The notes under the pieces were generated by a model, which did not search any database, had not been told where the DNA came from, and saw only the letters and a list, made by a program, of their open reading frames with translations. From NCBI RefSeq assembly GCF_001027285.1, contig NZ_CP011509.1, forward strand, positions 11,432,501 to 11,496,500: 64,000 nucleotides of DNA, in the 5' to 3' direction. Of the stretch, positions 42,662 to 42,706 are shown piece by piece (position 1 is the first letter of the stretch; each line of letters begins with the position of its first letter). This stretch comes from Archangium gephyra (GTDB lineage Bacteria > Myxococcota > Myxococcia > Myxococcales > Myxococcaceae). A program made the translations under genes and the position numbers.

Positions 42662-42706
42662 AAAAAAGAAAACGCGCGTGAGCCTTACCGGGGCTCACGC
42701 GCGTTT
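42662..42706 (-). terminator. Perfect rho-independent terminator or attenuator between metK and ahcY
   Basis: On the minus strand, the 15-bp arms (42692-42706 and 42670-42684) pair perfectly around a 7-nt loop, followed by TTTTCTTTTTTC (42661-42672 region). It ends metK transcripts, but ahcY begins only about 20 nt further on. Confidence 0.9.

Follow-up and report, generated by a model that had tools for sequence, protein, structure and literature searches.

A candidate ahcY promoter nested within the metK terminator of Archangium gephyra

How is a gene transcribed when it lies directly behind the strong terminator of its neighbour? The question is raised by metK and ahcY in a 64,000-nucleotide stretch of the Archangium gephyra genome (hereafter the window; source genome G000, one contig of 12,489,432 bases), where ahcY follows metK on the minus strand, with 92 nt between the metK stop codon and the ahcY ATG at 42641, and a hairpin with a T-tract lies in the gap. 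By this geometry an ahcY promoter must be sited either within metK or across the hairpin, as the original prediction correctly held; its further claims, that there is no room for such a promoter and that ahcY is reached by read-through or attenuation, are probably wrong, the observation itself being confirmed. The reading favoured here, with somewhat better than even confidence, is that the metK terminator also carries an ahcY promoter in the same ~45 bp, from which ahcY would be started independently (Table 1).

Table 1. Features of the metK–ahcY locus, in window coordinates
Feature	Position	Strand	Basis or remark
metK, S-adenosylmethionine synthetase	42734..43915	-	NCBIfam TIGR01034, 587.8 bits (cut-off 309.4)
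metK's own promoter-like site, TTGACT-N18-TAGTGT	43971..44000	-	TTGANN-N16-18-TA rule
Intrinsic-terminator hairpin of metK (predicted)	42669..42707	-	stem 42707-42692 with 42684-42669, loop 42691-42685 (CCGGTAA)
Terminator U-tract, CTTTTTT	42662..42668	-	sequence, hairpin scan
Proposed ahcY -35, TTGAAA	42704..42709	-	5' foot of hairpin; comparative motif
Proposed ahcY -10, TAAGGC	42682..42687	-	TAA in loop, GGC in 3' arm; spacer 16
Predicted ahcY transcription start	42673..42677	-	inside 3' arm; from -10 position; leader ~34 nt
Shine-Dalgarno-like GGAAGGA	42647..42653	-	5 nt upstream of ahcY ATG; sequence
ahcY, adenosylhomocysteinase, short form, 435 aa	41334..42641	-	NCBIfam TIGR00936, 649.6 bits (cut-off 497.6); tree
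Convergent FAD-dependent dehydrogenase-like gene	39950..41368	+	overlaps ahcY 3' end

The hairpin has the attributes of an intrinsic terminator, with a GC-rich stem and then a U-tract behind a stop codon. Its stem comprises 16 pairs when G-T is allowed (15 perfect base pairs had been described), with a loop of 7, and its tail reaches 42662, 20 nt before the ahcY ATG as originally stated; the accompanying figure of 27 nt, given as the distance from the metK stop codon to that ATG, holds instead for the distance from the stop codon to the hairpin. Folding gives -29.3 kcal/mol, a z-score of -2.99 and one of 200 shuffles equally stable, and eight of the ten bases in the tail window are T. A survey of 1.264 Mb of the source genome returned 69 terminator-like hairpins of at least 8 bp, 24 of them of at least 12 bp, so that the metK hairpin is among the strongest there and not unique.

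Its role is best read from the family. DNA downstream of metK was examined at 75 loci in 74 of 96 Myxococcaceae genomes (one genome, G006, counted twice), and a strong hairpin with a T-rich tail (hairpin score at least 30, at least 4 T in the tail) was found behind metK at 60 of them, 52 of which have no ahcY on the same strand. The stem arms differ between genera with pairing kept (GAGCC/GGCTC, GGGCCC/GGGTCC, GGGACC/GGTCCC), a pattern that cannot be read as covariation without circularity because the hairpins were chosen for pairing. The hairpin is thus a conserved, ordinary metK terminator of the family, with termination itself predicted from sequence, and, since it is present also where ahcY is not, it did not originate as an ahcY regulatory device. 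The window hairpin shares with its family counterparts a GC-rich perfect stem, a short loop and a T-rich tail directly behind metK; it differs in belonging to a set of six genomes with an intact short ahcY in which a promoter-like site can also be read in the loop and 5' foot.

In the window this site is a sigma-70-type TTGAAA-N16-TAAGGC (42709-42682) overlapping the hairpin, with a good -35 element and a -10 element that is a poor match to TATAAT. A strict consensus promoter scan of 36000-48000 reported no promoter, partly because it demands T at the sixth position of the -10 element. Only the metK hairpin, among the 69 surveyed in the source genome, holds a match to TTGANN-N16-18-TA. A good -35 paired with a poor -10 is also seen in sigma-A promoters of Myxococcus xanthus: fibA, with a mapped start, has TTGAAA, identical to the -35 hexamer proposed here, and TCATCG (PMC3509222), and PB has TTGACA and TACCTC (PMC8156234), with an 18-bp spacer stated for P4rrnD and PB in PMC4182748. 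The window site differs from these promoters in that its elements straddle the 5' arm of a terminator, its spacer is 16 and its start is only predicted.

If the site is used, the two transcripts would be told apart by where they begin. Polymerase arriving from metK would make both arms, and so the full hairpin, and would stop at the U-tract; polymerase initiating from the nested promoter, at a start predicted near 42675, would make only part of the 3' arm, and because its leader would lack the 5' arm the terminator hairpin could not form. Transcription would then run into ahcY through a leader of ~34 nt, in which GGAAGGA precedes the ATG by 5 nt. We infer from the sequence comparisons that the site is used, that transcription starts at about this position and that read-through plays a minor role. 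Sequestration of the Shine-Dalgarno-like sequence by the T-tract, seen in the fold of the window, was considered and rejected, as the T-tract and leader differ among near relatives.

Evidence linking the site to ahcY is comparative. The rule TTGANN-N16-18-TA, devised once these sequences had been read, is matched in six of the eight metK terminators with ahcY behind them vs none of the 52 without (Fisher p 5.6e-7, a value that ignores kinship and the post hoc choice of the rule). The variants are TTGAAA-16-TAAGGC in the four Archangium-type genomes (the source genome and its nearest relatives G002, G004 and G006, which are near relatives of one another), TTGAAC-17-TATGGG in G040 and TTGAAT-18-TAGGGT in G042; no TTGANN/TA pair at any other spacing from 8 to 29 was found in terminators with or without ahcY. 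A chance match is expected in 0.8-1.6% of sequences, judged from 16 to 31 matches in 2000 dinucleotide shuffles of each of five site-bearing regions. Both exceptions, G054 and G070, which have ahcY and no site, encode AhcY proteins that have lost catalytic residues. Together these counts suggest that, in the genome set examined, the site goes with an intact ahcY. Under an independent-pairs test that takes account of phylogeny, on a tree of 52 metK sequences, three pairs were concordant, none discordant and two uninformative (sign test p 0.25), so that independent lineages are few, a point against the nested promoter. Among the 15 loci dropped by the hairpin filter there was one match, at +66 in G084, which has neither ahcY nor a strong terminator.

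Further comparisons bear on the loop and on single lineages. Hairpin and loop are identical in six of six pairs of Archangium-type sequences with ahcY (metK distances 0.031-0.081) and in only two of 89 pairs without it (metK distances 0.03-0.09), a comparison from which G040, G042, G054 and G070 were left out, so that the loop shows extra constancy in the Archangium-type genomes with ahcY. Recent transfer of hairpin and ahcY as a block among these genomes was rejected as an explanation: their ahcY DNA differs by 3.8-9.7% with the hairpin unchanged, which argues against it. Within G006, two metK copies 3.7% apart offer a contrast in one genome, the ahcY-bearing copy having the site and the other having neither ahcY nor site. 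In G005, a genus mate without ahcY, TAGAAA-N16-AAAGGC stands at the same place, one change away from each element, and looks like a decayed or forerunner site. The G006 copies lie 12 kb apart (C1:1586628-1587782 and C1:1598478-1599632; L037, L006, L084), only the second being followed by ahcY, and upstream of this second copy the promoter motif usual for metK is missing.

As a positive control, the same rule was applied upstream of metK itself, where it matches in 32 of 34 family regions; that site is nearly invariant, TTGAC[T/C/A] with TAGTGT or TACTGT, mostly TTGACT-N17/18-TAGTGT. Taken as a general promoter signal, the motif shows no more than modest enrichment across the upstream regions of the source genome: seven matches vs 1.2 expected by single-base shuffles in a first sample and, in 800 kb held out from it, eight vs 3.08 +/- 1.74 by dinucleotide shuffles (the best of 40 shuffles giving seven).

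The main rival to a nested promoter is partial read-through, in which the two genes are transcribed as a unit, the terminator only lowers ahcY relative to metK and ahcY has no dedicated promoter. The genes' shared strand and 92-nt gap favour this account, as does their wider distribution: metK and ahcY are adjacent on the same strand at 51 of 80 loci from many phyla (the genome_contigs set), a terminator-like hairpin occupying the gap in six of the 51, among them Nitrospira-type records and that of G040 itself, and in G043 the two genes are 60 nt apart with no hairpin between them. G054 and G070, with hairpin and ahcY and no promoter-like site, might also be read in its favour, but their AhcY proteins are decayed, and read-through has in addition to contend with the strength of the window hairpin and its T-rich tail and with the occurrence of that hairpin as the standard metK terminator also where ahcY is absent. 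Nor does it predict a promoter-like site associated with ahcY. We consider read-through unlikely as the whole explanation, and it may coexist with a nested promoter. The gap hairpins of other phyla, Nitrospira-type included (L113, L120, L129, L133, L163), are unrelated in sequence.

Regulated attenuation, in which the hairpin would be opened upon SAH accumulation by a ligand, a protein or an antiterminator at the 3' end of metK, has the logic of the SAM cycle behind it and a parallel in other Proteobacteria, where SAH-responsive control of ahcY by SahR or by the SAH riboswitch is described in PMC4239095. The likeness ends with the enzyme, no riboswitch family matching the window and the text of PMC4239095 containing no word that begins with Myxococc. 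Rfam gave no family at threshold in the window and, in a permissive search of 42400-44200, three sub-threshold microRNA matches only, so that no SAM or SAH riboswitch was detected, in keeping with the claim that none occupies the gap. A search for the antiterminator pairing proposed in the metK 3' end found no competitive partner in the 110 nt upstream of the hairpin: the best duplex with the 5' arm reaches -12.8 kcal/mol vs -29.3 for the hairpin, much as in controls without ahcY, and the terminator pairs have a mean predicted probability of 0.92. The stretch from the metK stop codon to the hairpin is moreover unconserved among the four nearest relatives, its length differing by 16-20 nt. All this makes attenuation very improbable. 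With a hairpin that exists without ahcY, no competitive antiterminator and a promoter-like site that overlaps the hairpin and goes with an intact ahcY, the step from a tight terminator to read-through or attenuation is unsupported. The companion argument, that regulated read-through would set the ratio of two SAM-cycle enzymes, is weakened by a further AhcY, of canonical form, encoded elsewhere in the source genome.

Sigma-70-like elements are lacking from many myxobacterial promoters, and the motif covers few genes; ahcY might be served by a metK-internal promoter, or by a promoter of a different sigma class invisible to a TTG/TA rule, the hairpin being bypassed or leaky and TTGAAA/TAAGGC a coincidence. 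This we hold to be quite improbable. No other TTG-N16-18-TA and no better consensus match was found within the final 350 nt of metK in five of the six site-bearing genomes (all but G040, which is cut by a contig end), and the motif indicated no metK-internal promoter in these five or in G054 and G070. A transcript begun inside metK would still meet the terminator, and coincidence in three distinct hairpins, at ~1.5% each, is unlikely.

To return to the nested promoter, in its fuller form a single inverted repeat would serve both to terminate metK and to start ahcY; the repeat would be maintained whole for as long as ahcY is there and intact, and would lose its promoter half upon loss or decay of ahcY. 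Because terminating and initiating polymerases would share the same 45 bp, heavy metK transcription would occlude the ahcY start and so set the enzyme ratio by collision and not by read-through; this extended form is offered tentatively and we regard it as doubtful. No promoter lying in a terminator in this arrangement was recognised in the literature searched (titles and abstract openings), nor was a description of such an overlap recognised in passages of the papers cited here and of PMC2864571; this lack of a recognised precedent is weak evidence of novelty and no proof of absence in print. The arrangement is a modest variant in which terminator and promoter overlap, and related genomes supply a natural series for comparison. 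A site in use would show by what means a gene shut in behind a strong terminator can be expressed on its own at no cost in space, and genomes with ahcY, without it, with a decayed ahcY or with two metK copies would allow interference between terminating and initiating polymerases at a single site to be studied. A tight terminator, on this reading, need not imply read-through control.

The history of the gene pair can be followed through the AhcY copies. A genome search of the source found one metK match, a single copy, and two AhcY proteins: the canonical one at 6.37 Mb (C1:6368688-6369866, L083) has a longest reading frame of 502 aa with an extra internal segment, and that of the window is short, at 435 aa. 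The family's short AhcY proteins cluster together in a quick tree, with two Myxococcales records beside them, and closely related short forms stand behind metK and its terminator in G000, G002, G004, one G006 copy, G040 and G042. The AhcY homologues of G054 and G070 form a very long branch and are highly divergent. In the alignment CLHVT is replaced in them by CLPLT or CLPVT, and TKHLFDN by TWRLFDA or TWRSHDA; the altered positions are those that we take to be the catalytic His, Lys and Asn. The G054 protein falls below the TIGR00936 equivalog cut-off (385.4 vs 497.6 bits) and above that of NF004005, and both proteins appear, from these changes, to be dead or repurposed. Both homologues are linked to metK (G054, L013 1498-2790; G070, L014, minus strand from 2616).

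Presence of ahcY requires seven changes on the metK tree, which alone cannot separate gain from loss; the simplest history is an old metK–ahcY pair between whose members a terminator was gained in part of the family, with repeated loss of ahcY. Three genomes (G066, G075 and G051) have an ahcY on the opposite strand, convergent with metK. On the far side of ahcY in the window lies the convergent dehydrogenase-like gene, presumably sthA/lpd-like, which in G005 comes directly after the metK terminator, the place that ahcY takes in between in the window; the two genes of the window overlap tail to tail by 35 bp (41334-41368).
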